Below the pieces are notes generated by a model. It was not told where the DNA came from. It made no database searches and worked only from the letters and a program-made list of their open reading frames with translations. From positions 1-29,568 of IMG/VR virus record IMGVR_UViG_3300029957_000032: 29,568 bases of DNA; one strand, written 5' to 3'. Shown here piece after piece: positions 933 through 19,688 of the stretch. The translations under genes were made by a program, and so were the position numbers. Position 1 is the first letter of the stretch. Every line of letters starts with the position of its first letter. This DNA comes from a virus.

Positions 933-2570
933 ATGAAACTTACTATTCCCAAAAATGTGTTGGTGGAGGCGCTGAACCAGGTGAAGGGGGCCACGGGCAA
1001 GACGACGCTGCCGATTTTATCGTGCGTGCTGCTCCGGCTGGATAATTCCGAATTGTCGCTGACGTGCTCGGATTTGGATTTGACGGTGCGCGTGGTGGTG
1101 CCGGTGGTGTCGAAATCATCGGGCGCGGCCTGCGTGCGGGTGGCGCTGTTGCACGGGATTGTGAATGCGCTGCCGAAGTCGGACGGGGATATTTCGCTGG
1201 AGCAGGTGGAGGACAAGCTGCGGATTACTTCGGCCACGGGAGTTTATGATCTGGGGGTTTTGGAGGCGGGAGAATTTCCGCCGCTGGCCAAGGTGAAGGG
1301 GAAGGAATTCACTTTGGAGCAGATGCCGCTGGTGCAGATGCTGTTCAGCACGGCGGATGCGATGAGCGATGATGAAGGCCGCTATATTCTGAACGGGGTG
1401 AATTTGACGATGGCGGGCGGCGCGTGGACGGCGGTGGCCACGGATGGGCGGCGGTTGCATCGGGTTATTTTGGGCGACACCCAGCCGGCAGCGGTCAAGA
1501 AATCCAAAAAGTCCAAGGCTCCGGCGGCGGAGTTGGATTTGATTATTCCGCGTAAGACAGTGAAGCAGCTTTTGCGTTTGTTGCCGGTGGCGGATGTGGC
1601 TCAACTGACTTTGAAGGCATCGGCTTCGGCGGTGGAGTTTGAGGCGGGCGGACTGCTGGTGCAGAGCAAACTGGTGGAGGGAAGTTTTCCGAACTGGCAG
1701 CAAGTGGTGCCAGCGGCGGGCCATGCGGTGCCGGTGCAGCGGTCGGAACTGGCCGAGGCGGCGGCCCGGGTCGCGCTGATTGATGAGCATTGCGTGATTT
1801 CTCTGGCGAAGGGCTTTTCCAAGATCACGGCGGCGAGCAAGGGTAATGTGGACACTGGGCAGGAACGGTTGGGCATTCTGGAATCGGAGCCGTTCACCAT
1901 CAAGCTGCAAGTAAAATATCTTTTGTCGGCGCTGGGATCGGTGGCGGAGGCGGAAATCGGGATGTGCTACTTGAATGCGACTTCACCGCTGGTGCTAAAA
2001 ACCACGGCGCTGGATTGGCTGGCGGTCATCATGCCGATGCGGATGGACCAGCCGCCCACCAGTTTTGAAAAAGAGCAGCCGCAGTCTGGACCCACCGAGG
2101 AAGTGACTGAGGCACGGCCGCCGGAGGCGGAAGCTCCCGCCCAGCCAGAGCCGGATGTGGAAGTGGAAGCCAACGGCGATTTCAAGGATGGAAAGTTGAC
2201 GGCCAAAGGCAAACGGAAGATTGCCGCCGCAGCGGAGAAACGCTGGGCCAAGGTGAAAGCGAAAGTTGTGACGGATGAAGAGGTGCAATCGGCCCGGGAT
2301 CAGGCGGAAATGAAGAATCTGCGGGCGAAAATCAAGGCAAATTCGTCGGCGGTGCAGGACGAAAACGAGACCCGGATTCAGCAAGCCATCAAGGCGATTT
2401 CCGATGAGGGCAAATGCAGCGTGAGCCTGATTCAACGCTGGATGAATCTGTCATATTCGCAGGCGAATGACGTGCTGGATGAACTTCAACAGCGCGGGAT
2501 TGTGGGCAAAACCATCAAGACCGGCAAAGGCGCCGGCACCCAGCCGATTTTGATCACGCTCAAAGATTAA
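933..2570 (+). CDS. DNA polymerase III beta-type sliding clamp fused to an FtsK-gamma-like winged helix
   Basis: Residues 1-371 are a complete beta clamp: N-terminal KLTIPKNVLVEALNQV, central ATDGRRLH, and the canonical end VIMPMRM at 367-371. Known clamps are about 366 aa and stop here. This protein continues for 174 residues. A Pro/Glu-rich linker (about 372-415) comes first. Then a basic segment with the AAAEKRWAKVKAK motif (about 416-446), a short motif I recall from DNA-associated bacterial proteins. Residues 478-545 closely resemble the FtsK gamma winged helix (EGKCSVSLIQRWMNLSY, then LQQRGIVG). The clamp would tether polymerase or other partners to DNA; the tail could add sequence-specific DNA binding or recombinase contact. 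The recognition helix differs from E. coli FtsK (YSQAND rather than YNRAAR), so KOPS specificity is unlikely. The clamp call is firm and the gamma-like call is good. Confidence 0.9.
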   Translation: MKLTIPKNVLVEALNQVKGATGKTTLPILSCVLLRLDNSELSLTCSDLDLTVRVVVPVVSKSSGAACVRVALLHGIVNALPKSDGDISLEQVEDKLRITSATGVYDLGVLEAGEFPPLAKVKGKEFTLEQMPLVQMLFSTADAMSDDEGRYILNGVNLTMAGGAWTAVATDGRRLHRVILGDTQPAAVKKSKKSKAPAAELDLIIPRKTVKQLLRLLPVADVAQLTLKASASAVEFEAGGLLVQSKLVEGSFPNWQQVVPAAGHAVPVQRSELAEAAARVALIDEHCVISLAKGFSKITAASKGNVDTGQERLGILESEPFTIKLQVKYLLSALGSVAEAEIGMCYLNATSPLVLKTTALDWLAVIMPMRMDQPPTSFEKEQPQSGPTEEVTEARPPEAEAPAQPEPDVEVEANGDFKDGKLTAKGKRKIAAAAEKRWAKVKAKVVTDEEVQSARDQAEMKNLRAKIKANSSAVQDENETRIQQAIKAISDEGKCSVSLIQRWMNLSYSQANDVLDELQQRGIVGKTIKTGKGAGTQPILITLKD

Positions 2571-3200: not shown

Positions 3201-3925
3201 ACGAAATCATCCAGCAATGTCCGCAGTGCTACCGCTATTTGGTGGATGGCACGGTGGTGGCGTTGTCAATGGGTGACGCTTCGGCGGCGGTGGTGGCGGA
3301 CCGGCTGGTGAGCCAGGCTTGCGGGTTGCCAGATTGCGAGTTGATGGTGCAGGTGATTCGTGAGCGGGAATCGAGCCGTCGGCAGCGGGCGGCGATTGAC
3401 CGGATCACGCGCCGGGATCGGCATGATGCGAAGCGGGAATGCAGGGAACAGAGATCAGAGGTCAGAAATCAGAGGTCAGAAATTGCGCGGATGCCGTATA
3501 AGGACGCGGAGGAAAGGGATGAGACCGGAAACCTGAAACCTGAAGTGACTGCGGCACCGGCATCGTCGCCGTTTGGGGTGAATCTTGGGCAGGTTATCGA
3601 ACATTCGATGTCTCAACATGATTTTCAGGCAAGCGGGCTCGCCGATAGCCAGAATGCCAAGCTCATCGAGTTTTTTTCGAAGCCGCACAATTTCGGTTTG
3701 TGGTTCAAGTCCACGATGCTCGAGGAGTTGAGCGGGGCGACGCGGATGAATAACCGCGCGATTGATCTGCGTCCGGTGTTCATTGAGCGCGGCCACTACA
3801 TTGATAATTGCATGATGACGGATACGAACACGGACCGGAAGGCGAGCTATTACCGGGTGTGCAACATCGAGGATGCTCTGAGCCTGACGGCGGAGCAGAA
3901 AGCCAAGATTTTGGCCATGGATTGA
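3197..3925 (+). CDS. Two-part protein: Cys-motif N-terminus and winged-helix-like C-terminus
   Basis: The N-terminal part (1-80) has CPQC at 8-11 and CGLPDC at about 43-48, possibly a metal site, followed by a very basic helix. The middle (about 83-118) is heptamer-repeat translation (REQRSEVRNQRSEI, then GNLKPE). The C-terminal part (about 125-242) resembles phage winged-helix domains: LWFKSTMLEELSGATRMNNRAIDLRPVFIERG, then a wing with YYRVCN. The repeat seems to serve as an inter-domain linker. A DNA-binding, replication or regulatory role is inferred. It ends 5 bases before the next gene, where base composition changes. Confidence 0.5.
   Translation: MNEIIQQCPQCYRYLVDGTVVALSMGDASAAVVADRLVSQACGLPDCELMVQVIRERESSRRQRAAIDRITRRDRHDAKRECREQRSEVRNQRSEIARMPYKDAEERDETGNLKPEVTAAPASSPFGVNLGQVIEHSMSQHDFQASGLADSQNAKLIEFFSKPHNFGLWFKSTMLEELSGATRMNNRAIDLRPVFIERGHYIDNCMMTDTNTDRKASYYRVCNIEDALSLTAEQKAKILAMD
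3449..3483 (+). repeat. Five tandem heptamers (CAGAGRT/CAGAAAT)
   Basis: Five contiguous 7-base units alternate between CAGAGGT-type and CAGAAAT-type within the winged-helix gene. Confidence 0.85.
3528..3541 (+). repeat. Tandem heptamer GAAACCT, 2 copies
   Basis: Two exact GAAACCT units lie 44 bases after the CAGAGGT-type tract, repeating the pairing seen at 18-186. Confidence 0.75.
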
Positions 3926-3930
3926 CCCAG

Positions 3931-4302
3931 ATGAAAACCACATTTTCAATCAAACCACAACGGGCTGCGCGGAATATCTTTTGCTGTGCTGGCAAATATC
4001 GGGTGCTCATCACCCGCCGGCCTAAAAACATTTATGGTGGAAGATTTTCCAAGCTATCGGATGCCGTCCGAGTTCGCAACGAACTGGAAAAGACAGTGGC
4101 ACCGTGCAAGCCGTGGCAAAACACACCGCGATTGAAGGTGCGCCGGACTCAAACCACGCTGCGCCTGGAACGCCGCGCCGCTGGCCTGTGCCAGTCGTGC
4201 GGAACTGAACCGCCGAAATCCGGCTGCGTGACTTGCCAGGGCTGCATGGATGCTATGCACGCCAAACGTAACCTGCGGCGGGAATTGTCCACTAACAAAT
4301 AG
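3931..4302 (+). CDS. AP2-like DNA-binding / zinc-cluster protein, 123 aa
   Basis: I chose the ATG at 3931, directly after the preceding stop; an earlier in-frame start would overlap that gene widely. Residues 21-54 (GKYRVLITRRPKNIYGGRFS, then KLSDAVRVRNELEK) resemble AP2-type DNA-binding domains of mobile elements. Residues 87-105 hold CQSC and CVTCQGC, five Cys that probably bind zinc. The gene is less G-rich on this strand than its left neighbours. Its last codons (STNK, stop TAG at 4300-4302) lie inside the first attC-like site, so it abuts the cassette array and may itself be an old cassette. Product function is inferred. Confidence 0.55.
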   Translation: MKTTFSIKPQRAARNIFCCAGKYRVLITRRPKNIYGGRFSKLSDAVRVRNELEKTVAPCKPWQNTPRLKVRRTQTTLRLERRAAGLCQSCGTEPPKSGCVTCQGCMDAMHAKRNLRRELSTNK

Positions 4303-4404
4303 CTGAGCCACAGCCGCCCCGAATGACCGCAACGCTGCCATCGCCAGAAGCCACCCGCCAACCTGAAGGCCGGGCGGCTGTTGTGCTCCAGCGTCTGGTT
4401 CGGA
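4290..4404 (+). other. attC-like recombination site A (115 bp)
   Basis: End boxes are CACTAAC (4290-4296) and GTTCGGA (4398-4404). Five-nt unpaired spacers follow each: AAATA and GTCTG. GCT (4302-4304) pairs with AGC (4390-4392). The arms continue pairing as GAGCC...CAGCCGCCC with GGGCGGCTG...GCTC. The right arm carries an unpaired C (4388/4389) and extra T residues. The geometry matches integron attC sites: core box, spacer, arm with extrahelical base. The boxes are more degenerate than in the other two sites. Confidence 0.75.
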
Positions 4405-4889
4405 TGCGGATTGTTCCGACGAGCCTCGAAGAAGCAAATGCCTACGTGACCGAGCATCACCGGCACCATGATCCAGTGACAGGCCACAAATATAGCATCG
4501 CGCTGGCCGACGAAGGCGGGACGGTGCGCGGCGTGGCCATCGTGGGACGCCCAGTGAGCCGCATGGCCGACAACGGCTGGACGCTGGAAGTGAACCGATG
4601 CTGCACAGACGGAGTGCCGAACGGCTGCTCGATGCTCTACCGGGCCGCCTGGCGAGCTGCGCGGGCGATGGGATACACACGACTGATAACCTACACGCTG
4701 CCGGAAGAAGGCGGCGGAAGCCTCAAAGGTGCGGGCTTCCGACTCGTGGGTGAACGCGGCGGCGGCAAGTGGACAAGAGCATCGAGACCGCGAGTGGATA
4801 CGCATCCGACTCAAACCAAATGGCTGTGGGAAGTGCAAGACGCTAAGCAGCCGAACGTAGAGCTATGCAACGTGGCGTCAAAAACCTAA
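4323..4889 (+). CDS. XF1762-family GNAT-like protein
   Basis: Belongs to the phage-associated XF1762 family, an acetyltransferase-fold protein of unknown substrate. Seen: HHRHHDP (45-51), GVAIVGRPVSR (70-80), LEVNRCCTDG (88-97), GCSMLYRAAWRAARAMGY (101-118, the pyrophosphate-binding helix region of GNATs) and ITYT (122-125) with a GAGFRLVGE close. The family core begins near residue 29. The first 28 residues, including QRLVR (23-27), are encoded by attC site A and look like an added leader. It ends within attC site B. It is the gene of the leftmost of the three cassettes. Family firm; function unknown. Confidence 0.85.
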   Translation: MTATLPSPEATRQPEGRAAVVLQRLVRMRIVPTSLEEANAYVTEHHRHHDPVTGHKYSIALADEGGTVRGVAIVGRPVSRMADNGWTLEVNRCCTDGVPNGCSMLYRAAWRAARAMGYTRLITYTLPEEGGGSLKGAGFRLVGERGGGKWTRASRPRVDTHPTQTKWLWEVQDAKQPNVELCNVASKT

Positions 4890-4979
4890 ACTGACCGGCG
4901 AAACCTATGAATAAAAAAAATCAAAAACCGAACGAAACTGTAGGGGCAAGCCACGTTGCGCATCAGCGACTTGTTAGGC
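4850..4979 (+). other. attC-like recombination site B (130 bp)
   Basis: Boxes are GCCGAAC (4850-4856) and GTTAGGC (4973-4979, a perfect GTTRRRY). Spacers are GTAGA and GACTT. The left arm, GCT-AT-GCAACGTGGC (4862-4876), pairs with GCCACGTTGC-GC-AT-C-AGC (4950-4967). The right arm carries an unpaired C at 4964 and a 2-nt bulge. Twelve or more base pairs flank the bulges. Confidence 0.88.
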
Positions 4980-5194
4980 ACTGGTGTAATCACATAGATC
5001 GGAAAGAAAACCTCGAAGACTGGTCTTGGACTGACGGAAAAGGCTGGATCTTCTGGAGCGTATCTAGCGATCACCCGCTCTATGATTGGGTGATTCCAAA
5101 CTCATGGAAATGCTGCCCGATATGTGGAGCGATCCGTCCCAAAGTGCCTAACGAAAAGCTGAAAGATCGCACGGTCGAAAACCAGAAACCATGA
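4907..5194 (+). CDS. Small cassette-encoded protein with CPIC motif, 95 aa
   Basis: Not recognised. The first 19 residues or so and QRLVR (20-24) come from attC site B. The body is rich in Trp (HWCNHIDRKENLEDWSWTDG, then KGWIFW) and ends in WKCCPICGAIRP (67-78), a half zinc-ribbon that could pair with Cys27. The gene starts inside site B and its stop lies in site C, four bases overlapping the methyltransferase start. The C-terminus (NEKLKDRTVENQKP) is therefore attC-encoded too. It is a typical short unknown cassette ORF. Confidence 0.65.
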   Translation: MNKKNQKPNETVGASHVAHQRLVRHWCNHIDRKENLEDWSWTDGKGWIFWSVSSDHPLYDWVIPNSWKCCPICGAIRPKVPNEKLKDRTVENQKP

Positions 5195-5275
5195 ACGGAG
5201 TCGCTGACATTCGAGAAACGGAAACGGTCGCAAGCCCAGAGGCCAAGTGCGATTCTTTCCAGCGTCTTGTTATCC
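5146..5275 (+). other. attC-like recombination site C (130 bp)
   Basis: The clearest hairpin. Boxes are GCCTAAC (5146-5152, perfect RYYYAAC) and GTTATCC (5269-5275). Spacers are GAAAA and GTCTT. The left arm GCT-GAAAGA-TCGCAC (5158-5172) pairs with GTGCGA-T-TCTTTC-C-AGC (5247-5263). Fifteen pairs are interrupted only by an unpaired T (5253) and an unpaired C (5260) on the right arm, 7 bases apart, like the two extrahelical bases of known attC sites. Confidence 0.92.
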
Positions 5276-6054
5276 CAATTCCTTTCGTGGACTCAATCAT
5301 TCACGGCGATAACTGTGACGTGCTCGGACAACTACCGCGTTCGTGTATAGACCTGGTGGTAACGTCTCCACCATACGACGACCTGCGAACCTACGTCGGT
5401 CACTCATGGGACTTCTACGGTGTGGCTTGGCAACTCAAGCGCGTGCTTAAACCCGGCGGCGTCATCGTGTGGGTCGTCGCGGACGCGACGAAAGACGGAA
5501 GCGAAAGCGGCTCGTCAATGCGTCAATGCCTGCACTTCCAACAACTCGGTCTGAAAATCCACGACACGATGATATATCGGAAGTCGAATCCAATCCCACT
5601 GACGCACAACCGATACGAGCAAGAGTGGGAATATGCTTTCGTGCTGTCTCTCGGCAAACCTAAAACGTGGAATCCGATACTCAAGAAAAACAAGACGGCC
5701 GGAAAAGTGGTGAACTGGTCAACGCGAGCGGTCGAAGATGGTGCCGCGCGTCGGTGCCGCGACGAAACAACCATCGCAAATGAAACCGGCTACATCGGGA
5801 ACATCTGGGAATATCCCGTCGGCGTGGACGCAATCGGCGACCATCCCGCTCCGTTCCCAGAAAAACTGGCGAAAGACCACATCGTAAGCTGGTCAAACGT
5901 CGGCGACGTGGTGCTCGATCCGTTCAGTGGCAGCGGAACGACGTGCTCCGCCGCGAAGGAACTGGAACGCCACTACATCGGAATCGAAATCAATGAAAAG
6001 TATCTCAAACAATCAAACGCTCGAACCGCGCAAGACGTGCTCGGATTGGGATAA
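5191..6054 (+). CDS. DNA methyltransferase, N4-cytosine/N6-adenine class
   Basis: S-adenosylmethionine-dependent DNA base methyltransferase of the N-4/N-6 type. Seen: IHGDN (37-41), catalytic VVTSPPY (57-63), LKRVLKPGG (82-90), and near the C-terminus VVLDPFSGSGTT with HYIGIEINEKYL, the cofactor-binding motif. SPPY before FxGxG is the beta-class order. Residues 1-27, ending in QRLV, derive from attC site C, and the enzyme core starts near residue 31. The TAA stop sits in the GGATAAC box (6049-6055), so the ORF fills the cassette exactly. No restriction enzyme is adjacent, so it is probably an orphan protecting phage DNA. The target sequence is unknown. Confidence 0.9.
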   Translation: MNGVADIRETETVASPEAKCDSFQRLVIPIPFVDSIIHGDNCDVLGQLPRSCIDLVVTSPPYDDLRTYVGHSWDFYGVAWQLKRVLKPGGVIVWVVADATKDGSESGSSMRQCLHFQQLGLKIHDTMIYRKSNPIPLTHNRYEQEWEYAFVLSLGKPKTWNPILKKNKTAGKVVNWSTRAVEDGAARRCRDETTIANETGYIGNIWEYPVGVDAIGDHPAPFPEKLAKDHIVSWSNVGDVVLDPFSGSGTTCSAAKELERHYIGIEINEKYLKQSNARTAQDVLGLG

Positions 6055-6115
6055 CAGTTATTTGACAGAAACAAATCTAGGTGAGATAAAGAAATGAACC
6101 CGAATTGCAGAAATT
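6049..6115. other. Putative attI region
   Basis: GGATAAC at 6049-6055 (GTTATCC on the - strand) exactly complements the outer box of attC site C, as expected for the first-cassette/attI junction. No partner arm follows, in contrast to the attC sites. Its position immediately before intI suits an attI. Exact limits cannot be seen. Confidence 0.5.
6062..6090 (+). promoter_or_regulatory. Putative intI promoter
   Basis: A perfect -35 TTGACA (6062-6067), a 17-bp spacer and a -10 GATAAA (6085-6090) lie 26 bases before the intI ATG. It overlaps the attI-like region. No LexA-type palindrome was seen. Confidence 0.5.
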
Positions 6116-7063
6116 ATGAAACCGTTACGCGAACAGTTCCGCGAATGGATGGTGTTTCATCATTATTCGCCGCGCACAATCCAAACTTACATTGGCTGCG
6201 TGTATGCCTTCGTAGTTTGGTCGGGCAAGCGCGATCCGTTGACCATGGGAGCGACGGAGGTAAATGCGTTTCTGTCGCATTTGGCCAACGATTATCATGT
6301 AACAGCCAAGACGCAGACGCAAAATCTCTGCGCGCTGGTTCGATTTTACGATGGCTGTCTGGGCAAGCCGCTGGGGGATATAGGCAAATTCGATTACGCT
6401 TCAAAGCCGTCCAGGCTGCCGGTGGTGATGTCCAAGTCGGAAGTATTTCAGGTAATCGAGGCGCTGCCCCCCAATGCGCTGCGGTTGATGACCAAGCTGC
6501 TTTATGGATGCGGCCTGCGGTTGATGGAGTGTTGCCGGCTGCGGGTGAAGGATGTGGACTTCGCCAGGGGCGTGGTGAATGTGAAGTGCGGAAAGAACGA
6601 CAAGGACCGCAACATCCCGCTACCCAAATCAATCATCACGGAGTTGCAGTCGCATCTGGCCTACAATCACACGCGGTTTCTGGCGATGAAGTGGGTGGTT
6701 CATTTGCCGGACGGCTTGCCGCGCAAGTTTCCGAATTACGAGCACGAATGGCCGTGGCAATATGTCTTTGCGGCCCGTGGTTTTTCGACAGACCCAGACG
6801 ATGGCCGGCAAAAGATTCATCATATTCATCAGAACACACTGCAAAAGGCAGTTCACACTGCGGTGAGGAATCTAGCGCTGACCAAGCGCATCACTTGCCA
6901 CACCTTCCGGCATTCTTACGCCACACATTTGATCGAGTCCGGCACGCCGATTTACGATGTGCAGCAGTTGCTCGGTCATTCGCGGCTGGAAACCACTATG
7001 ATTTACAATCATGTGGCCATGCCGCCGGAGCAGCGTATCGCCTCACCATTGGATACCCGATAA
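6116..7063 (+). CDS. intI: Integron-type tyrosine recombinase (IntI)
   Basis: Site-specific tyrosine recombinase of the integron integrase group. The N-terminal SAM-like domain has REQFREWMVFHHYSPRTIQTY. Catalytic residues visible are R135 (GCGLRLMECCRLRVKDVDF), H262 and R265 (CHTFRHSYATHL), H288 (LLGHSRLETTM) and nucleophile Y297 (MIYNHV). The insertion specific to IntI is present at about 196-240: HLPDGLPRKFPN, EWPWQYVFAARGFSTDP, then HHIHQNTLQKAV. The ending RIASPLD is also IntI-like. This motif is absent from ordinary phage integrases and XerC/D. Length (315) is normal. The start at 6116 fits IntI alignments although no clear ribosome-binding site is seen. It could move cassettes at the adjacent sites and might also serve as the phage integrase. 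Confidence 0.92.
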   Translation: MKPLREQFREWMVFHHYSPRTIQTYIGCVYAFVVWSGKRDPLTMGATEVNAFLSHLANDYHVTAKTQTQNLCALVRFYDGCLGKPLGDIGKFDYASKPSRLPVVMSKSEVFQVIEALPPNALRLMTKLLYGCGLRLMECCRLRVKDVDFARGVVNVKCGKNDKDRNIPLPKSIITELQSHLAYNHTRFLAMKWVVHLPDGLPRKFPNYEHEWPWQYVFAARGFSTDPDDGRQKIHHIHQNTLQKAVHTAVRNLALTKRITCHTFRHSYATHLIESGTPIYDVQQLLGHSRLETTMIYNHVAMPPEQRIASPLDTR

Positions 7064-7114
7064 TTTTCTTGTTTCGAGGGTTCAGTGGGCTGCAATTATC
7101 AACCCTCTGAACGC

Positions 7115-8200
7115 ATGACTGACACTATAACCACGCCACTGGCCGCTCGCCGTAACCCAGCCACTTTGTCACCGCTGCGGGTCAATCGCAGCGCGTATGG
7201 GCCATTCTGTGACGCTGTGAGGCGGTTAAACTGCATTACGCCGACGCAAGCGGAGGTGGCGCGGTTCGTGGCGTGGGCCACGTTGAGGCAGGGGTTTAAT
7301 TCGCTGGCGTTTTGTTCGTTGAGTGAATTGACCCAGGTGCGGGCGCATGCACGTCCGTTTGCCGGGTTGGGGAAAAATGATTTGTCGCCGGCCTTGATTG
7401 CTTTGCAGCATTTCGGGCTGGTGAAGATGGAGACGCGGGAGCAGTTGGAGCCTGGCGTGCCGCCGGTGACGCTGCTCCTCGTCATTGCTGACTCTAGCCA
7501 ATGGTCCGTGCCGGACTCGGGCTGGAAATTCAGCGTGGAAGAAGAGAATGCACTGCTACTTCACCTGTTGGCGTGCCGCCAGCGGTGGACGGCGCAGTTG
7601 CCGGAACTGGCCGAAGAGCCTGATCTGCTCGATGCGCGTGCCGCCATCGCCGCAGAACAGGCCGCCAGTCAGAATGACGCAGGGCCGCAGGCAGCGTGCC
7701 GCACCTCGGCTCCCAGCGTCAGAACCAATGCACTTGACCTTTGCCCTACCCCCGAACGCGGGCGAGTAAGTCAGTGCCGTTCCGAAAGTCAGAACGCTGA
7801 AAGCCCAATGAATGCGCGTGCCGTTCCGAAAGTCGGAACTCCCCCTGTTAAACAGTTAAACAGAATTAAACAGAGAGCAGTTCAACCGTTGAACAGCGCA
7901 AAGGCTGATGACTCGAACCGATTGCTGGCGCTGCTGGCGAAGGAGTTCGAGCGCGTCCACGGACCCGCCGCAACGGCCAAGGAGATGGCGAACAGCGGGG
8001 CGTGCTGGCGCATGGTGGCAAGGCGGTGGCCGGATGAGTTCGAGCAGCAAGTAGATGCGTTGCGCTGCTTCCTAAACGAAGGCGGCAAAGTGAGACGAGC
8101 GGCGTGGTTTTACATCCAGCACTACCTGTCCCGGGCCGTGGGGTGCGACACATGGGCCGCCGTCTGTGAAAAATCAAGGGAACCTCTTAAAACCCTATAG
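7115..8200 (+). CDS. Replication-type protein with HTH-like N-terminus (361 aa)
   Basis: Not firmly recognised. I prefer the ATG at 7115; a GTG at 7085 would add ten residues. The N-terminal region (NCITPTQAEVARFVAWATLR, then CSLSELTQVRAH and LSPALIALQHFGLVKME) has the pattern of winged-helix replication initiators or helper proteins of phages and plasmids. The centre is a low-complexity linker (about residues 180-275). The C-terminal part (LLALLAKEFERVHGPAATAK, then RRWPDEFEQQVDALRCFL) resembles C-termini of such proteins. Iteron-like TTAAACAG repeats lie within the gene. It is the last gene before the GC-skew switch. A replication role is inference. Confidence 0.5.
   Translation: MTDTITTPLAARRNPATLSPLRVNRSAYGPFCDAVRRLNCITPTQAEVARFVAWATLRQGFNSLAFCSLSELTQVRAHARPFAGLGKNDLSPALIALQHFGLVKMETREQLEPGVPPVTLLLVIADSSQWSVPDSGWKFSVEEENALLLHLLACRQRWTAQLPELAEEPDLLDARAAIAAEQAASQNDAGPQAACRTSAPSVRTNALDLCPTPERGRVSQCRSESQNAESPMNARAVPKVGTPPVKQLNRIKQRAVQPLNSAKADDSNRLLALLAKEFERVHGPAATAKEMANSGACWRMVARRWPDEFEQQVDALRCFLNEGGKVRRAAWFYIQHYLSRAVGCDTWAAVCEKSREPLKTL
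7847..7873 (+). repeat. Iteron-like direct repeats (TTAAACAG x3)
   Basis: GTTAAACAG at 7847-7855 and 7855-7863, then ATTAAACAG at 7865-7873: three copies with 8- and 10-base periods in an AT-rich patch of a GC-rich gene. TTCAACCGTTGAA follows closely as an inverted pair. This resembles an initiator-binding cluster, but unproven. Confidence 0.45.
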
Positions 8201-8234
8201 AATACAAGGTTATTAAACATTCCAACCAACTCGC

Positions 8235-9068
8235 ATGAGCCAAAAAATAAACAAGAAACACACCGTCAACAAATCGCGCCAGCCTGATTTGATCGCGGCA
8301 CCCGTCGGAGCCAAGCCGATCACCTCGCAGTTTGTATCCGCCGCGCAATTATCTGCCGCGCTGCCGTTCGCCAAGATCACCGACCAGTTTTTGCGCGACC
8401 GCGCCGGCACGCGGAACCCCAATCCCCGCACCGGCTTGCCGTGGATACCGAAACCTCGCGGCGCAAAATACGACCTCAACGCCACCGTCCTCGGCCTCCT
8501 CGAATGGTTTTGCGTCCAGGCCGAGCGCGCTGAAGGTTTGCCCCGCGTTTGCAACTCCATGAAGCACGCCGAAGAGTTGTTTCATCTCCCCTACGAATTG
8601 CAGCAATACGTTCGCAGCCACGGCGGCGCGGAAGCCTTTGAAGCCAGCAACCGCGTGCGCGTCCTCGAAGTTTTGCGGCATGCTTTTCCGCTGCTCAAAA
8701 AGATATTCTCCGGCGGCGCGGCGCAGATCAAAGGCGTCGAAGGCATGGAAGACCTCGACAGCGACTTTCAGCTCGCCCGCGTCCGCAAGGAAGACGCCGA
8801 CGAACGAGCCCGCGACAACGCCCTAGCCAACAAAAACCTTTACACCCGGGAAGGCATCGTCACCGAACTTGGCGACCCTTTGCTCAGCGCCGCCAATGCC
8901 TGGAAAAATTACGACAAAGACACCGGCGCCAAACTCCAGACTTACCTCACCACCGCCGGGCTGACCGTGGAACAAGCCAAAGCCGCCCGCGCCCTGGCCA
9001 CCGCCGGCGTCGAGAAAATTCCCGCCGAACTTCGTGAAAAATTGAAACTCGAAACCAAATCCAAATGA
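8235..9068 (+). CDS. Putative small terminase subunit / DNA-packaging protein
   Basis: 277 aa at the left end of the packaging module. Its general build recalls Nu1-type small terminases: an N-terminal DNA-binding-like part (ITDQFLRDRAGTRNPNPRTG) and a charged helix (ARVRKEDADERARDNALANK), followed by the pattern TREGIVTELGDPLLSAANAW. It would recognise phage DNA and stimulate the large terminase. It is first in a run of coupled genes (the next start overlaps its stop) and the first gene with strongly C-rich coding strand. I could not verify the family, and two accessory genes separate it from the large terminase. Confidence 0.5.
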   Translation: MSQKINKKHTVNKSRQPDLIAAPVGAKPITSQFVSAAQLSAALPFAKITDQFLRDRAGTRNPNPRTGLPWIPKPRGAKYDLNATVLGLLEWFCVQAERAEGLPRVCNSMKHAEELFHLPYELQQYVRSHGGAEAFEASNRVRVLEVLRHAFPLLKKIFSGGAAQIKGVEGMEDLDSDFQLARVRKEDADERARDNALANKNLYTREGIVTELGDPLLSAANAWKNYDKDTGAKLQTYLTTAGLTVEQAKAARALATAGVEKIPAELREKLKLETKSK

Positions 9069-9691: not shown

Positions 9692-9693
9692 TA

Positions 9694-10728
9694 ATGACCA
9701 TCACCGAAATCAAAGCCCCCTTCCCGTGGTTCGGCGGCAAATCCCGCGCAGCGGATCTCATCTGGCCGCGCCTCGGCCATCCCGGCAACTACGTCGAACC
9801 CTTCGCCGGCTCACTTGCCGTCCTGCTCCGCCGCCCCACCGAACCCGGCAATGAAATCGTCAACGACCTCGACTGCTACGTTGCCAACGCCTGGCGCGCC
9901 ATCAAGTTCGCCCCCGATGAAGTCGCCGCGCATACCGATTGGCCCGTCAACGAAGCCGACCTCCACGCCCGCCACCGCTGGTTGCACAGCCGCGCCGAGT
10001 TCCGTGATCGCATGGAACACGAACCGGATTTTTACGACGCGCGCATCGCTGGATTTTGGGTCTGGGGATTATCGTGCTGGATCGGAGATAATTTCTGCCG
10101 GCCTTCGCGGCAAAACTCTTTGCCCCACCTCACAGGTGGCCAAGGTTGCGCCGCGCAAATTTTAAACACCCGGCCAGCCCGACAATCCTCGCGAACCACC
10201 GGCGGTCAAGGCGTCGCCCGTCAGGTGCCGCACCTTACGGGCGGGAAAGGCGGAGACCCGTCAGGTGCCGCACCTTACGGGCGGGAAAGGCGCTCCCGCC
10301 GCGCCCAAATTCAAACCGAGAATCTTATGGCCTGGTTTGAATCCCTATCCGCCCGCCTCCGCTTCACCAAAGTCTGCTGTGGAGGCTGGGATCGCGTTTG
10401 CACCAAAGCCAGCACCTACGGCCAGGGCCTGACCGGCATCCTCCTCGACCCGCCCTACGACACCGACGGCCACGACGATGTTTACGGCGACCTATCGCGC
10501 GGCGTCAGCGCCCAAGTCCGCGAATGGGCCATTGAGAATGGTTCCAACCCGCTCCTCCGCATCGCCCTGTGCGGCTACGCCGGCGAACACGCCATGCCTG
10601 CGGGCTGGACCGTGCTGGAATGGAAAGCCTCCGGCGGCTTCGGCAACCAATCTGGCAATGAGAATTGCAAACGCGAACGCATCTGGTTCAGCCCGCATTG
10701 CGTCAATCCCGAACCCACCCTGTTTTGA
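9694..10728 (+). CDS. DNA adenine methylase, D12/Dam class, with repeat insertion
   Basis: N6-adenine DNA methyltransferase. Motif I is FPWFGGKSRAADLIWPRL (about 9-26), then YVEPFAGSLAVLL (35-47) and IVNDLD (58-63). The catalytic motif LLDPPYDTDGHDDVY is near residue 251 and the end is WKASGGFGNQSG. This order is the Dam-like (D12) arrangement. Between the two halves (about residues 146-206) lies a Gly/Arg-rich insert encoded by palindromic repeats (10131-10315), lengthening the protein to 344 aa against about 270-280 for relatives. Whether it remains active is open. The start at 9694 follows the ASCH stop closely. It probably protects phage DNA. Confidence 0.88.
   Translation: MTITEIKAPFPWFGGKSRAADLIWPRLGHPGNYVEPFAGSLAVLLRRPTEPGNEIVNDLDCYVANAWRAIKFAPDEVAAHTDWPVNEADLHARHRWLHSRAEFRDRMEHEPDFYDARIAGFWVWGLSCWIGDNFCRPSRQNSLPHLTGGQGCAAQILNTRPARQSSRTTGGQGVARQVPHLTGGKGGDPSGAAPYGRERRSRRAQIQTENLMAWFESLSARLRFTKVCCGGWDRVCTKASTYGQGLTGILLDPPYDTDGHDDVYGDLSRGVSAQVREWAIENGSNPLLRIALCGYAGEHAMPAGWTVLEWKASGGFGNQSGNENCKRERIWFSPHCVNPEPTLF
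10217..10292 (+). repeat. Two 36-bp palindromic repeats inside the adenine methylase
   Basis: Identical 36-base copies at 10217-10252 and 10257-10292 (period 40). Each contains an inverted repeat, CCCGTCAGGTG-CCG-CACCTTACGGG, with one mismatch. Degenerate related units lie upstream from about 10131 (CCACCTCACAGGTGG). The period is not a multiple of three, so the copies are read in different frames. Confidence 0.9.
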
Positions 10729-10730
10729 CA

Positions 10731-13106
10731 ATGACCTCCGCCCTCGCCACCCCTGCCCCCAGCTTTGGCTGCAACGACACGTTGCTCGCCCAGATCCGCG
10801 CGCAAGACGCCGCCCTTGCCCGCGAACTCCTCGAACTCTTCACCCGCCCGCTCCCCAGCGGCCAGCCCTTCGACTGGGCCGTCGCCGAACTGGTGCTCGA
10901 CACCCCCATCATCAAAGGCCAGCCCTTCAACGCCACCGGCCGCGAATACCTCCGCGACCCCATCAACGACATCAACGCCGACGATTGCCGCGAACAAACC
11001 TGCTGTTGGGGCACCGGCAACGCCAAGACCCTGAAAAACCTCGTGCAAGCCACCTGGGCCATGGAACACGCCCCATTCTCCGGACTCTTCATCCTACCAA
11101 GCAAAGAAGGCCCCGGCGGCGGCCGCCAGTTCAACAACGGATCACTGATTCCCACCATCGAACGCACCCGCTGCTTCGCCGATAAAATCCCGACGGGCGC
11201 CGACCGCCACAATTTCAGCGGACTCCACCTCCAATTCGCCGGCAACAACGTCGATCTCGCCGGGGCGAATAGCCCCACGCAGTTGGGTGCCAAACGCTGC
11301 CAATTTGTTTGGCTGGACGAACAGGACAAATACAAAGCCAAGCTCGGCCGCGAAGAAGGTGCCGACTACCTCGCCGGCGAACGCACCAAGCAAGTCCCCA
11401 ACGCCAAGATCATCCGCGGATCCACGCCCACCAAGGAAGATTTCGGCATCTGGCCGCACCTCATGCGCTCCGACCTCCGCCGCCGCTTCCTCCCTTGCCC
11501 TTTGTGCAATTCCGATCAGATGAGTGCGGCGCGCCGCTTCGTCCTCATCAAAGACGCCCAATTTTCCGTCATGCCCACCAAGTTTGCGGATGGAACAGAG
11601 ATCCCCGCCGCCCCGCTCGTCTGGGACAAAGAAGCCAAGCGGCAGGACGGCACATGGGACATGGACCGCGTCATCCGCTCCGCCCGGTTCGAATGTCCCC
11701 ACTGCCAAGGCCACATCCAGGATCATCACCGCATCTGGCTCGATAAAAACGGCGTCTGGCTCCCCACCCGCCTCAGCATCGGCCACAAGGGATACCATTT
11801 GCCCAGCTTCTACGCCCCCCACATCGACACCGAGACAAGCTGGGGCCACATGGCCAAGAAATTCCTCGACAAAAAAGACTCCGGCGAACTCCAAGGCTAC
11901 ATCAATTCCGACCTCGCCGAAGTCCACGTCAGCCAGGAACAAGGGCGCGGCACCATTACCTTCACCTCCCGCCCCGTAGCCCAGGCGGATTGGACCCCGC
12001 TCCTTACCGTGGACGTTCAAAAGCAATGGCCCTACCTCTGGTTTGTCGTCCGCAAATGGTCATCCTTCAAGCTGCTACCGCCCGTGGAATTCTCCAATGG
12101 CCGGCCCGTCCTCGGCGAACTCATCCCCGAATTCAAAGCCAAGCTCGAACGCCTCGTCGCCGGGCAGGCTGCCGCCTGGCTGCCCGTGGCCGAGCTGCTC
12201 CGGTTCGACACTGGCACCGCCGAGACGCCGCTGCTGGACTTCCTGCTTGCCAAAGACATCACCGGGACCAATCTCGCCGCCGCCTTCCGCGAACGCTGCA
12301 TGAGCCAAACGGTGGACTTCGGCAAATGGATATACCGCGAGATGGGTTTAAAGATGCCTCGGGGCGGTGACAGCGAATCTGTAGCTGTCGGCCATTGCCA
12401 GACCGACGACTGGGCCGAGCTGCGCGAAATCTTCACCCAGTTTGAAGTCGGTAAACATCTTGTCAACCGCAACGCCGCCGTGCTCATTGACTCCGGCTAT
12501 CGTGAAAGAAATAATCCCGAAGTGCTCCGCAAATGTTATGAAACCGCCACCGAGTTCGGGCATTACGACCCCGCCAGCAAAAAGATTTGGGCGCACCCCG
12601 TCAACGGTTTCTGCAAGCCCGTTCCACTCAACAACTGGCAGCCGTGGAAAGGCTATCCCATCCGCAAACGCTGGAACGTGGACGGCATCGCCCGCGAGTG
12701 GCACTACAACATGGCCGACCCCTTCGGCGGCAGCAGCGAAGCCGATCAATGTGTCATCCAGGTGCTCGAAGGCGCGGCGGACCTATTCTGGGAGCGGTTC
12801 AACAACCTGCGCGAAAACCGCACCTCCAATGTCTGGGCCATCAGCGGCGCGCTCGCGCTGTTCCCCAAAGATAAATTCCAGATCAGCCAATACGAGCGCC
12901 AGTTGAATGCCCGCTATTGGGATGAAGAAAAGCAGGAAGTCCGCAATCGCGGCACCGGCGGCTCCGGCCACCGCCTCTGGCCCGATGAATTAAACGATTG
13001 CGAAAAAATGCAAGTGGCCCTCGCCGACAGCCTCGGCTTTTTCAGCTACGAAAACCAACCCACCCAAAACACCAACACCGAAATAAGATATGAAAACGAA
13101 AACTGA
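10731..13106 (+). CDS. Phage terminase large subunit, GpA-type
   Basis: ATP-driven DNA-packaging motor and nuclease (about 791 aa, normal for the GpA family). Seen: a deviant Walker A CCWGTGNAKT (91-100); AGANSPTQLGAKRCQFVWLDEQDKY with Walker B LDE at D196-E197; a coupling motif IIRGSTPTKED; a zinc finger formed by CPLC (256-259) and CPHC (322-325); and a nuclease half with TVDVQK and DSGYRERN. The ATG at 10731 lies just after the methylase stop; an upstream in-frame ATG would overlap that gene. It acts with the portal protein encoded further on. Identification is firm. Confidence 0.93.
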   Translation: MTSALATPAPSFGCNDTLLAQIRAQDAALARELLELFTRPLPSGQPFDWAVAELVLDTPIIKGQPFNATGREYLRDPINDINADDCREQTCCWGTGNAKTLKNLVQATWAMEHAPFSGLFILPSKEGPGGGRQFNNGSLIPTIERTRCFADKIPTGADRHNFSGLHLQFAGNNVDLAGANSPTQLGAKRCQFVWLDEQDKYKAKLGREEGADYLAGERTKQVPNAKIIRGSTPTKEDFGIWPHLMRSDLRRRFLPCPLCNSDQMSAARRFVLIKDAQFSVMPTKFADGTEIPAAPLVWDKEAKRQDGTWDMDRVIRSARFECPHCQGHIQDHHRIWLDKNGVWLPTRLSIGHKGYHLPSFYAPHIDTETSWGHMAKKFLDKKDSGELQGYINSDLAEVHVSQEQGRGTITFTSRPVAQADWTPLLTVDVQKQWPYLWFVVRKWSSFKLLPPVEFSNGRPVLGELIPEFKAKLERLVAGQAAAWLPVAELLRFDTGTAETPLLDFLLAKDITGTNLAAAFRERCMSQTVDFGKWIYREMGLKMPRGGDSESVAVGHCQTDDWAELREIFTQFEVGKHLVNRNAAVLIDSGYRERNNPEVLRKCYETATEFGHYDPASKKIWAHPVNGFCKPVPLNNWQPWKGYPIRKRWNVDGIAREWHYNMADPFGGSSEADQCVIQVLEGAADLFWERFNNLRENRTSNVWAISGALALFPKDKFQISQYERQLNARYWDEEKQEVRNRGTGGSGHRLWPDELNDCEKMQVALADSLGFFSYENQPTQNTNTEIRYENEN

Positions 13107-13585: not shown

Positions 13586-13990
13586 ATGGCGGTAGTGATT
13601 AGGATTCAATCAGAGACCAAACGCGCCATCCTGCGGCAGATTGCCAAGGGCGCCAAAGACTCTACCACTTCTCTCAAAGACGCGCTCATCGCAGTCCAGG
13701 GCAAAGCCACCGACGCATCCTTTCTAACCGGCCGCTTGCTCATCTCCACCTCCGGCAACGGTCAATCCGCCAGCTTCCAGATTTCCACCGCCGGTTTCAC
13801 CCAGGATGTTTTTGTCGGACTTACCGAGGAACTCATCAACATCCTGGAAGATGCCGTCGCCAATGGCGCCAGCGAAGACGCCGCGCAGATTGACGCGCTT
13901 TTCATGGCCATGTGCGGCGATGATCGTCTCCAAGGCGTCCGCGTCCAGCATGGCGACTTCACCAGCCTCCGTTTTCCTGTCACCCGATGA
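13586..13990 (+). CDS. Head-region hypothetical protein, 134 aa
   Basis: Located between terminase and portal, the place of head-completion or gpW-like genes. Visible: a basic N-terminus (KRAILRQIAKGAKDSTTSLK), a beta-rich middle (FLTGRLLISTSGNGQSASFQ) and a helical acidic end. The last codons overlap the portal start by four bases. The family is not recognised. A head-tail joining role is inferred from position only. Confidence 0.5.
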   Translation: MAVVIRIQSETKRAILRQIAKGAKDSTTSLKDALIAVQGKATDASFLTGRLLISTSGNGQSASFQISTAGFTQDVFVGLTEELINILEDAVANGASEDAAQIDALFMAMCGDDRLQGVRVQHGDFTSLRFPVTR

Positions 13991-15612
13991 AACAGCGCCT
14001 TCAATCCATCACGTTTTCCGCCATCAAAGGCGTGTTGCATCTGGGCAGCCGTCTGCCGCTCGTCGGCGGCGTTTTTGCCCGATTCGAGAGCGCGTGGCAG
14101 GGATGGGGCGAGCGTTCGTGGCTTCAGCAGTCCCTACAGGATGCGCGGTTCGACATCGACGCAGCCACCCGTCAGGAACTCCAGCGCCGGCACCGCTACT
14201 GGGTCAGCAACAACCCGCTCGTCCAGAAAATCCGCAATTTGTTCCTCCAATTCGCCGTCGGCCCCGGCGGGTTGACCGTCACGCCCAATTCCGACGACGA
14301 AAACTGGAACCATTCCCGCACGCACGCCTTCAATCTCTGGGCGCGCGAACCCGATCTCGGCTCCCGCCTCACACTTCCCGGCTGCACCCGCCAATGGGCC
14401 GGCCAGTTGTTTGACGACGGCGAATTCTTCATTTACAAACGAACGCTTCCAAACGGCTTAAAAGCCGTGCAAACCATCGAAGCCCACCGCATCTGCACCC
14501 CGTCCAAGGTAAAAGAATATCGCGGCATGTCCATTTTTGACGGCTGCGTGGTGGATGCGAACGGCAAAACGCAGTTCTACGCCGTCCGCGTTAATCAGGA
14601 TTCATCCCTGAATGGCTTTCTGGATCAGCAAGGCCAGAAAAATTACGGCGAGGAGGAATTTTCCTTTGTCAAAGCCAGCGCGGGCGCGAAGTCCGACGGC
14701 ATCATCCACAAATTCAAGCACCGTCGCCCTGGGCAACTGCGCGGAATTCCAGAAGGTTTCTCCGGGATGAATATCCTCCACGATCTGGACGATTTGCAGA
14801 AATTGGAAATGCAATGCGCCAAAATGGCGGCGGAAATCGGCCTTACCGAGACCAACCCCAGCGGCGAGCTTGATGTTCTCGCCAATCGCAAGCTCAAGAC
14901 CAGCATCCAGACCGTGAACGGCTCCGGCCAGCCCGTCACCAAGAACGTCTGGGCGGATTACAACGTCTCTTTTGGCGGCAAAAAACTTGCATTGAAATCC
15001 GGCGACAATCTCCAGAATTTCATGGTCAACCGGCCCACCGTGGCCCAGCAGGATTATTACGACCTGCTCATCTCCCAGATCTGCGCCAATTACAACGTGC
15101 CGGTAATGATCGCCTTCCCGCACGCCGCCGCCAAGGCCAGCGGACCAGCCATCCGCGCCGAACTGGACATCTGCTCCAATGCCTTCCGCGTCAACTTCGA
15201 GATTGTGGCCGAGGCCCTGCGCGAACTCTACGAATGGCAGGGCGAATGGGCCAAGGATTACGACCTTATGCAAGACGGCGCTTGCCCGCCGGATTATTTC
15301 GCCTGCGTCATCCGCCCGCCGCGCTCCCCCAATGTGGATATTGGCTATACGGCCCGCGCCTTGCAGACCGAACTCGAACTCGGCGTCAAGACCATTCAGG
15401 ACGTTTACGCCGAAAAACAGCAGGACTGGCGCGTCCAGCTTCGCCAGATCGCCGAGGCCGTCGCCTTCACCAAGGAACTCGCCAAGGAATTCGGCATTGA
15501 CGCCGACCAGATCACCAGCCTCGCCGAAAAACAGATTTTACCCCCCGCCCCCGGCGGCGGCACCAAACCCGAAGCTGTGGAAGACCTCGAACCACAGGAA
15601 GTCCAAGCATGA
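13987..15612 (+). CDS. Phage portal protein, lambda B-type
   Basis: Forms the dodecameric ring at the head vertex through which DNA is packaged and ejected. Seen: an N-terminal region ending RYWVSNNPLVQKIRNLFLQF and VGPGGLTVTP (about 74-103); KAVQTIEAHRICTP (159-172) followed by YRGMSIFDGCVVDANGK; HKFKHRRPGQLRGIPEGFSG (245-264), the typical motif of the lambda portal family; and GGKKLALKSGDNLQNF with NYNVPVMIAF near the C-terminal half. Length (541) is normal. The stop overlaps the next start by four bases. Strong identification. Confidence 0.93.
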   Translation: MKQRLQSITFSAIKGVLHLGSRLPLVGGVFARFESAWQGWGERSWLQQSLQDARFDIDAATRQELQRRHRYWVSNNPLVQKIRNLFLQFAVGPGGLTVTPNSDDENWNHSRTHAFNLWAREPDLGSRLTLPGCTRQWAGQLFDDGEFFIYKRTLPNGLKAVQTIEAHRICTPSKVKEYRGMSIFDGCVVDANGKTQFYAVRVNQDSSLNGFLDQQGQKNYGEEEFSFVKASAGAKSDGIIHKFKHRRPGQLRGIPEGFSGMNILHDLDDLQKLEMQCAKMAAEIGLTETNPSGELDVLANRKLKTSIQTVNGSGQPVTKNVWADYNVSFGGKKLALKSGDNLQNFMVNRPTVAQQDYYDLLISQICANYNVPVMIAFPHAAAKASGPAIRAELDICSNAFRVNFEIVAEALRELYEWQGEWAKDYDLMQDGACPPDYFACVIRPPRSPNVDIGYTARALQTELELGVKTIQDVYAEKQQDWRVQLRQIAEAVAFTKELAKEFGIDADQITSLAEKQILPPAPGGGTKPEAVEDLEPQEVQA

Positions 15613-17855
15613 AAAAACATCTCCGCAAACTCCAACTCCGAGGCGAGCCGCTTGCGTTCTCGCCCATCGTCCGCGCCAAGAAACTGCCCGTGGATGCCGC
15701 CGCCTCGCTCGGCATTGAGAAATTGGACGGCGAAAACCGACTTGAAATCCGAAATGAATCGGATGAAACCCACCTGTATTTGTCCGGCACCGTCGGCTCG
15801 AGCTGGTGGGATGAATCCGGCATCACCGAAAAGGAAGTGCGGGACGCCCTCGCCGTTGCCAAAAAAGGAAAAACCATCCATGTCCACATCAATTCCGAAG
15901 GCGGATCAGTCAAAGAAGGCCTCGGCATCTACAACGCCATCAAAGAGCGTGCCGCCGACATTACCTGCCACATTGATGGTTACGCGCTGTCAATCGCTTC
16001 CGTTTTCCCGCTTGCAGCCGGCAAGGTCGTCAGTCCGAAGTCTGCCATCTGGATGATTCACAATGCGTGGAGCTGGGCGCAGGGCAATGCCGCCGACATG
16101 GAGGCGCAGGCCAAAATGCTCCGCGAGCACGACCAGATGCTCAATGAGATTTACCAGGAACACACCGGCAAATCCGAAACCGAGATCCGCGATGCGATGA
16201 ATGCCGAGACGTGGATACGCGGCTCGCTCGCCGTGGATTGGGGTCTGGCCGATGAGACCGGCGAGGAAAAATCCGACGATTCACAAGCCCGCTACACCGC
16301 GCTGCCCCAGGCGTGGCTGGATCGTTGCAAAAATATCCCTGAAACCATTTTGGCCGCAGTCCGCCGGGAACCAAACCAGACCCAACCCGCGCCGGTATCC
16401 ACCCTGGCAAACAACTCCGCAGCTCAATCTGCGGTTTCATCCACCCCGCCCACTGCGCCTGCGGCTAATTCAACCCTTTCACCGGCACAACCAACGCCGC
16501 CGGCGAATACCAACCCAACCCCAAACCCCACACCAAAAATGAACGAACCCACCCCTCCGGCGGCGGCTCAACCCGCAGCCAGCACCAACGATGCTGTTTT
16601 GGCCCTGACCAAAAAGCTCATCAACCAGCGCCTCAACGAATGCGTCAAAGCGCAGAAAATCACCAAGGCCGAGATGCCGATTTACCTCGAAGCCGCGCTG
16701 AAGGATGAGGAAGGCACCTTTGCCATCCTCGACGCCAAGGCTTCCGCCATCGCCGCCTCCGAACCTGTCGCCGGCAATGTCTTTGTCACGGCCCAGCCGT
16801 CGCACGCGGACACCATCGTGGCCAAGGCGCAGGAACGCTATCCGCTGCTCAAGACCACGGGCGGGGCCAAAGCCCGCTTCACCGCGCTCCGCAATGATTG
16901 GGACAGCATGATCGCCGACGCGCTCCGCCAGGACGATGTCCGCGCCCAAGCCGTCCTCCGCACGGGTGCCCTGCCGAACAACAGCAACACCTACAGCTCC
17001 ACGTTGGTCACGGCTTTCCTCACGGATGGCGCCACCACGGTCCTCACGCCCAAACTCGCGCCGTTCCGCGCCTTCAACCGCGACTTCAGCGCCGATCCCT
17101 ACAAGCCCAACGCGGTCGCGCAGCACAAGTTCGTCTCCGGCGGTTCCACCACCCAGACGGATGCCACGAACTTTGAGTCCGGCGATAGCGTCGTGGCTCC
17201 GGTCACCATTACGCCGCACCAATACACCACCTCCATTCAGATCAGCAACTCCGACCTGAACAACGGACTTCGCATGGAAAACCTCGTGACCATCAACGCC
17301 TCCAAGCACGGCACCAAGCTGCTGCAAGTGGCGATGGCTCCCATCACGCTGGCGAACTTCACGGAAACGATTGACGGCTCCCAAAACGTCATCACCGCCG
17401 CCAACTTCGGTTTCTCCTCGCTGGCCACCCTGTGGGGCCGCGCGCAGAAATTCAACATGAGAAACTTGGTCATTGATGGCAACTATCTGGCCAAGCTTCT
17501 CAACCAGCCTACCTACTTCCAGCAAATCAATGCGGATGAAGGCGCTTTCAAGGCGTTCGGCTGGGACGGCATCTTCCTCTGCTCGGACTTCACCGGCGCG
17601 AGCAACAACGCGATCTTATTCGCGTGCGATCCGCAGGCGATTGCCGTCTTGGCGGGCTTGCCGCTCACGCCGCCGACTGGCATCCCCGGCAACACGCTCC
17701 AAACCGGCGCGTTCAAGCTGCCCGGCGTGGAACTGAGCACCCAGACCAATAGCTGGTTCAACCTCGCCAGCCGCACCGCATGGATGAGCTTTGACAACAT
17801 CCTCGGTGCCGCCAAGCAGGATGGCACCGCCGGCATCGTCGGCTGCTCCAGCTAG
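15609..17855 (+). CDS. ClpP-like head protease fused to major capsid protein
   Basis: Residues 55-220 are a ClpP-type maturation protease: TIHVHINSEGGS (89-100), nucleophile S128 in GYALSIAS, H151 in MIHNAWS and GLADETGE at 212-219. The third, acidic residue is uncertain. A Pro/Thr/Ala-rich linker (about 245-325) follows, then a helical scaffold-like part (about 330-400). From about 400 to 748 it is the major capsid protein: NNSNTYSSTLVTAFLTDGAT, GDSVVAPVTITPHQYTTSIQ and TAWMSFDNILG are typical of lambda E-like capsids. Self-cleavage would release capsid from scaffold. An in-frame ATG at 16539 (residue 311) could start capsid alone, as in lambda's nested scaffold gene, though no ribosome-binding site is visible. 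Firm for both halves. Confidence 0.9.
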   Translation: MKKHLRKLQLRGEPLAFSPIVRAKKLPVDAAASLGIEKLDGENRLEIRNESDETHLYLSGTVGSSWWDESGITEKEVRDALAVAKKGKTIHVHINSEGGSVKEGLGIYNAIKERAADITCHIDGYALSIASVFPLAAGKVVSPKSAIWMIHNAWSWAQGNAADMEAQAKMLREHDQMLNEIYQEHTGKSETEIRDAMNAETWIRGSLAVDWGLADETGEEKSDDSQARYTALPQAWLDRCKNIPETILAAVRREPNQTQPAPVSTLANNSAAQSAVSSTPPTAPAANSTLSPAQPTPPANTNPTPNPTPKMNEPTPPAAAQPAASTNDAVLALTKKLINQRLNECVKAQKITKAEMPIYLEAALKDEEGTFAILDAKASAIAASEPVAGNVFVTAQPSHADTIVAKAQERYPLLKTTGGAKARFTALRNDWDSMIADALRQDDVRAQAVLRTGALPNNSNTYSSTLVTAFLTDGATTVLTPKLAPFRAFNRDFSADPYKPNAVAQHKFVSGGSTTQTDATNFESGDSVVAPVTITPHQYTTSIQISNSDLNNGLRMENLVTINASKHGTKLLQVAMAPITLANFTETIDGSQNVITAANFGFSSLATLWGRAQKFNMRNLVIDGNYLAKLLNQPTYFQQINADEGAFKAFGWDGIFLCSDFTGASNNAILFACDPQAIAVLAGLPLTPPTGIPGNTLQTGAFKLPGVELSTQTNSWFNLASRTAWMSFDNILGAAKQDGTAGIVGCSS

Positions 17856-19687: not shown

Positions 19688-19688
19688 C

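Follow-up and report, generated by a model that had tools for sequence, protein, structure and literature searches.

Integrons are usually regarded as belonging to bacteria, and the complete examples reported from phages look borrowed from a host. In class 1 and sedentary chromosomal integrons, the integrase IntI carries a characteristic insertion, its gene intI has the attachment site attI at its 5′ end and diverges from the attC sites, and the cassettes are single genes, each with an attC and each cut at G^TT. The 'reverse' integrons of the Treponema type have a different architecture, in which intI is transcribed toward attI (PMC3607928). From temperate phages, Qi et al. (2023; PMC9892861) described three complete integrons and one In0, which are host- or class 1-like, as well as 17 clusters of attC sites lacking an integrase (CALINs) in phages, some of them with methyltransferases, and they demonstrated that phage attC sites recombine. 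Here we describe an integron in the 29,568 nucleotides of IMG/VR virus record IMGVR_UViG_3300029957_000032 (positions 1 to 29,568; the window), a 29.6-kb virus contig bearing hallmark genes of tailed phages. This locus very probably represents a phage-dedicated variant of the integron that swaps largely counter-defence genes.

The published phage integrons have in common with this locus the occurrence of integron parts in tailed phages and the presence of methyltransferase cassettes, but the complete ones are host-derived (Vibrio, Shewanella, and class 1 in phage P1), unlike that of the window. With bacterial integrons the locus shares the features given above, the cut at G^TT being observed in related phages, whereas the phage integrons of our sample are distinguished by inverted cassette genes, placement in phage operons, IntI clades of their own and a separate cassette pool. 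As in Treponema-type integrons, intI and the cassette genes are transcribed in one direction. However, the attI of the window adjoins the 5′ end of intI, which points away from it, while the cassette genes point toward it, and the locus is thus not a reverse integron. Virus Rctr41k (KX853513; L002 among our comparison loci) is likewise a phage record with an IntI-like gene, annotated 'xerD', and an attC array, but the array lies downstream of intI, its genes run in the attC sense, and its IntI is only 36% identical. The Rctr41k locus (4680-10101 of that record) is itself a Treponema-type integron, and it is absent from the phages tabulated in the accessible part of Qi et al. (2023). Phage-borne integrons as such have been known since 2023 (PMC9892861), and the original prediction, which was aware of no well-described case in a tailed-phage gene layout, needs correcting on this point. 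We found no earlier account of inverted cassettes or of phage-only IntI clades: neither is reported in the accessible part of the 2023 study, and neither is described in the literature covered, with preprints and most subscription journals outside its scope.

The central claim of the original prediction, a compact integron inside a phage-type genome, is confirmed, and the integron is complete: the contig carries an integrase gene recognized by TIGR02249, attC sites, and genes for terminase, portal and capsid (Table 1). The integrase scores 343.8 bits against TIGR02249 over residues 6-314 (cut-off 265), while the scores of the Xer models fall well short of their respective cut-offs. In an alignment with IntI1, Vibrio and Shewanella enzymes and the phage homologue of Rctr41k, the catalytic residues R135, H262, R265, H288 and Y297 are all kept, and the IntI-specific patch LPDGLPRKFPN...W.YVF, the insertion that had been claimed, is present. 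These features identify the recombinase beyond reasonable doubt as an integron integrase.

For comparison, we took the loci of the 80 nearest IntI proteins in IMG/VR and of the 80 nearest in bacterial genomes (given L numbers here). Both sets were picked by similarity to the window IntI, their frequencies are not census values, and their contigs may be incomplete. A single-protein scan with the window IntI over viral and genome contigs gave no match; an alignment query reached the relatives. In a quick tree built with FastTree, the window recombinase clusters inside IntI and apart from E. coli XerD. With this placement, and with two attC significant by covariance model (see below), the outcome that the original prediction had named as refuting it did not occur. 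Together with L008, L009 and L010 it forms a viral-only clade (support 99), separate from a clade of 45 members, of which 44 are viral contigs and the last, L101, is a genome contig. The latter (JAJTDE010000039, from a metagenome-assembled genome of Rubrivivax) and viral contig L026 are both 34,391 bases long and have identical IntI, so that L101 is probably a phage contig mis-binned into a bacterial genome. Three further viral-only groups appear in the tree, and the phage IntI published by Qi et al. group with the host IntI of Vibrio and Shewanella. Phage L008 has the layout of the window, with an IntI 77% identical to the window's but different structural genes, and there the integron lies upstream of a terminase-like gene. 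Other integron-bearing viral contigs encode tail proteins (L040, L068, L017, L053, L072 and L064), a portal and head protease (L058) or a terminase (L010, L050 and L083). Phrog_2, the one family of terminase large subunits searched across the set, matched only two records.

Three attC sites had been predicted. A scan for R boxes and an L stem, in which extra bases are scored symmetrically, finds exactly these three at a score of at least 23 in the whole window, whereas dinucleotide-model shuffles lead one to expect 0.37 sites at this threshold and 0.07 at a score of at least 26. Two of the sites are also the first and second matches in the window to a covariance model, which was trained exclusively on 42 attC sites from bacterial genomes and class 1 integrons (among the training loci, L071 is a chromosomal-type array taken from IMG/VR) and whose structure holds 83.8% standard pairs versus 68.9% in shuffles. 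The third, at 4290-4404, is non-significant by this model, and what supports it is its box-and-stem anatomy, that is, a long L stem with canonical extrahelical bases, although its R boxes pair poorly. No attC family was matched in an Rfam search. The end boxes of the cassettes pair as had been claimed, with perfect complementarity for TTAGGC/GCCTAA and TTATCC/GGATAA and one mismatch for TTCGGA/GCCGAA. After the cut point upstream of intI, the motif AACAGTKMTT..AC is conserved in the window, L008, L009 and L010, and in another phage clade a stretch common to two phages starts exactly at the attI cut point. A truncated fourth attC, proposed beside the methyltransferase gene at 6049, was rejected; the element is this conserved attI.

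In known attC sites, the extrahelical extra bases sit in the 5′ (L″) arm, and our scan reproduced this position in the class 1 array on phage P1 and in Rctr41k. All three attC of the window have their extra bases in the 3′ arm on the plus strand, and hence they are read on the minus strand. Covariance matches in related viral loci also fall on the strand opposite intI, those of Rctr41k excepted, and where an array lies to the left of a plus-strand intI, minus-strand reading was found for 104 of 109 sites in the phage clade labelled P1 and for 70 of 75 in genomes. The geometry of the window is thus canonical, with intI on the plus strand, attI at its 5′ end and the attC sites leading away. The cassette open reading frames (ORFs), however, all lie on the plus strand, against their attC, toward intI and in the same sense as the phage genes, and for two of them this sense is backed by family matches (PF01555; XF1762/Mom-like). 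Cassette genes that run in the attC direction, a typical but not strictly defining feature of integrons, are therefore not what the window contains. The directions of cassette genes in the comparison loci were called with a home-made codon-model gene caller and Pfam homology checks, a comparison of longest ORFs being too noisy; its calls are consistent with the family matches and the comparison of cassette units. Of 90 cassette genes in phage clades, 77 run against their attC, whereas only 2 of 48 do so in genomes of bacteria (Fisher p 3e-22), and Pfam-supported genes confirm the inversion in L058, L016, L064, L053, L072, L012 and L029. Both the minus-strand attC with inverted genes and the attI beside intI were overlooked in the original prediction.

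Differences in cassette content among related phages, which had been proposed as a check, are present at such arrays. L028 and L029, obtained from separate metagenomes, have 99.9% identity across 4 kb around intI. Their arrays have in common cassettes of 299, 397, 450, 916 and 425 bp that are 99.5-100% identical end to end, but one array holds two extra whole cassettes (616 and 757 bp) and the other holds one (451 bp). Each junction is at RYYYAA^C of the plus strand, which is G^TT on the minus strand, and the attC moves together with the gene on its right. The latter observation is evidence for the inverted orientation that does not depend on the argument from extra bases. L021 and L022, also nearly identical around intI, likewise differ by whole cassettes, including an insertion exactly at attI, AA^CTTAAATTC. 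Cassettes are hence gained and lost in these relatives at the exact cut point of IntI. The predicted gain of accessory genes by cassette capture thus holds for related phages; by analogy with them, the integron of the window would itself be active, and its phage would have acquired its genes in the same way.

Several observations weigh against a phage-dedicated, cassette-swapping integron. The attC at 4290-4404 is weak by the covariance model (8.4 bits, E 3.9). Folded as single-stranded DNA, the three attC gave no significant z-score relative to shuffles, because their stems are short relative to their loops, and fold stability alone is therefore no evidence for attC here. No sequenced relative has cassettes in common with the window. 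According to the gene caller, two phages of clade P1 (L063 and L082) break the rule of inversion and a third, L041, is even. Finally, TJE1, a published phage CALIN, has one well-scoring site, whose gene has the canonical orientation. The first of these points would also suit a decayed and inactive relic, given the poorly pairing R boxes of that attC. This is nevertheless unlikely: intI is open with its catalytic residues intact, two of the attC as well as attI are well formed, and the cassette ends match their own partners. It is also possible in principle that IntI serves as the integrase of the phage itself, inserting the genome into a host attC or attI, with the cassettes as by-products. 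IntI is the sole PF00589 recombinase found in the four phages of the window's clade, and a Vibrio phage flanked by attC sites is known (PMC9892861). However, the contigs of the window's clade may be incomplete, a second tyrosine recombinase is present in over half of the records of related phages that were searched, where a phage integrase distinct from IntI adjoins intI in L012, L040 and L068, and cassette turnover is seen directly in relatives. We regard such a role as quite improbable.

Accidental carriage of a bacterial integron does happen, as is evident from the phages of Vibrio anguillarum and Shewanella studied by Qi et al., whose IntI group with those of their hosts. That the window represents a fragment of a chromosomal integron picked up in this manner is very unlikely, since its IntI belongs to a viral-only clade with support 99, as most other phage IntI belong to phage-only clades, its cassette genes are inverted, whereas 46 of 48 in bacteria follow the attC direction, and it has no cassette homologue in common with the sampled bacterial arrays. 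Least credible of all is the layout first proposed, in which plus-strand attC and rightward cassettes would lead up to intI as the last element, with a truncated attC as a fourth site after the methyltransferase gene. Although gene direction and the R″/R′ boxes alone are symmetrical and hence compatible with it, and stop and start codons lie near the boxes as in ordinary cassettes, the matches to the covariance model are on the minus strand, all three sites have their extra bases in the plus 3′ arm, the attC of L028 and L029 moves with the right-hand gene, and the supposed truncated site is the conserved attI.

Table 1. Positions of the integron components and of selected phage genes in the window.
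Feature	Positions	Strand	Basis
intI, integron integrase, 315 amino acids, intact	6116..7063	+	TIGR02249; alignment; tree
attI, R box shared with first cassette (minus GTTATCC)	6049..6077	-	cut between plus-strand 6054 and 6055
Cassette A, attI-proximal, methyltransferase gene inverted relative to its attC	5152..6054	-	cut points RYYYAA^C; covariance-model attC
attC of cassette A	5146..5275	-	covariance model 28.9 bits, E 1.2e-4, top in window; scan 27.9
N6/N4 DNA methyltransferase ORF	5191..6054	+	PF01555 E 1.3e-41; phage methyltransferase homologues
Cassette B, small zinc-ribbon-like ORF, inverted	4856..5151	-	cut points 4855/4856, 5151/5152
attC of cassette B	4850..4979	-	covariance model 27.1 bits, E 2.9e-4, second in window; scan 28.3
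Cassette B ORF, 95 amino acids	4907..5194	+	no family match
Cassette C, distal, Mom-like gene, inverted	4296..4855	-	cut points 4295/4296, 4855/4856
attC of cassette C, array end, weakest	4290..4404	-	scan 26.3; covariance model 8.4 bits, E 3.9
XF1762-family / Mom-like DNA-modification protein	4404..4889	+	NF045478 205.7 bits, cut-off 50; phrog_1384 Mom-like
Phage sliding clamp (DNA pol III beta) with C-terminal FtsK-gamma-like domain	933..2570	+	context
Terminase large subunit, GpA type	10665..13106	+	PF05876 E 5.7e-25; phrog_15 E 6.8e-49
Lambda-type portal	13987..15612	+	PF05136 E 1e-33
ClpP-type prohead protease / capsid fusion	15609..17855	+	NF045542, phrog_94

The accessory genes had been read as a methyltransferase and a GNAT-like gene. 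The first identification stands, whereas the second gene belongs to the XF1762 family and is Mom-like, its product being 54% identical to the Mom-like protein of phages Min1 and Samy. The methyltransferase ORF has its likely start near 5285 and its stop codon, TAA, within the R box; the ORF of cassette C is open from 4323; and that of cassette B matched nothing in Pfam or NCBIfam. All three can start within an attC loop (4323-4404, 4907-4979 and 5191-5275), and they read the attC arm in a common frame (QRLV). The end of the cassette B ORF overlaps the first ATG of cassette A, which suggests translational coupling across the attC.

The cargo of phage cassettes was surveyed by comparing 86 cassette proteins with Pfam and PHROGs. 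Most are without a family, but DNA methyltransferases were matched several times, PAPS-reductase-like proteins three times and Mom-like proteins twice, alongside one DHH phosphoesterase and one RtcB ligase (in L081). The PAPS-reductase-like genes lie in three different phages (L012 3709-4479, L053 8726-9469 and L072 8112-8864). Adjacent cassettes of L017 (8886-9137 and 9525-9890) encode a Tad2-like and a Tad1/Acb2-like protein, the latter below the family cut-off; Tad1/Acb2 and Tad2 are known anti-Thoeris/anti-CBASS families. Cassette homologues are common to phages of different clades (57% identity between L008 and L053), and also occur between bacteria, but none was common to phage and bacterial arrays in the sampled set.

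A phage-dedicated integron of this kind would work as follows. As in bacterial integrons, IntI encoded on the plus strand would recombine the folded minus-strand attC into attI at the 5′ end of its own gene, and the cassettes would consequently stack leftward from intI. With a gene inverted relative to its attC, the attC precedes the start of the gene, which points the same way as intI and the transcription unit of the phage. We infer that phage transcripts crossing the array express the cassettes, instead of a Pc promoter at attI, which would be antisense to the inverted genes. The methyltransferase, the Mom-like modifier and the small zinc-ribbon-like protein would most likely shield phage DNA from host restriction, and such protective genes could be swapped among phages through cassette exchange.

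The occurrence of terminase, portal and head protease/capsid genes on one contig identifies the surrounding genome as that of a tailed phage (Caudoviricetes). Its terminase has a distant match (27%) to an Akkermansia phage, which only hints at a host among the Verrucomicrobiota. In a relative, L006, the terminase is 69% identical, but that sequence starts downstream of the array, and no empty site can therefore be read from it. Other features of the genome include an FtsK-gamma-like winged-helix domain fused onto the DNA pol III beta sliding clamp (933-2570), a DNA methylase ORF (9694-10728) with a tandemly repeated insert (PHLTGGQG / PHLTGGKG) near 10080-10290, and short dispersed repeats (11-60, 2790-2890 and 3470-3540), which encode variants of EVRGQRSEVRGQ in several ORFs. 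Phage L029, whose integron is of the P1 type, also encodes a reverse transcriptase and has a pair of 121-bp repeats that are 90% identical (18898-19896, 20071-20737), possibly a diversity-generating retroelement beside the integron.

Beyond this one genome, it is likely that tailed phages own an ancient and widespread class of integrons, with several phage-only IntI lineages, inverted cassettes that phage transcription reads and a phage-restricted cassette pool in which DNA-modification and anti-defence genes abound. If so, phages would hold an exchangeable counter-defence arsenal that is the mirror image of bacterial integrons. Integron recombination would then be a native means of phage evolution and would offer phages a direct route to trade anti-restriction and other counter-defence genes. 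Moreover, the inverted layout uncouples attC direction from gene direction, which are normally confounded in bacterial integrons, and could be used to test expression and cassette choice without a Pc promoter. The layout of phage integrons also provides a searchable signature for new anti-defence genes.

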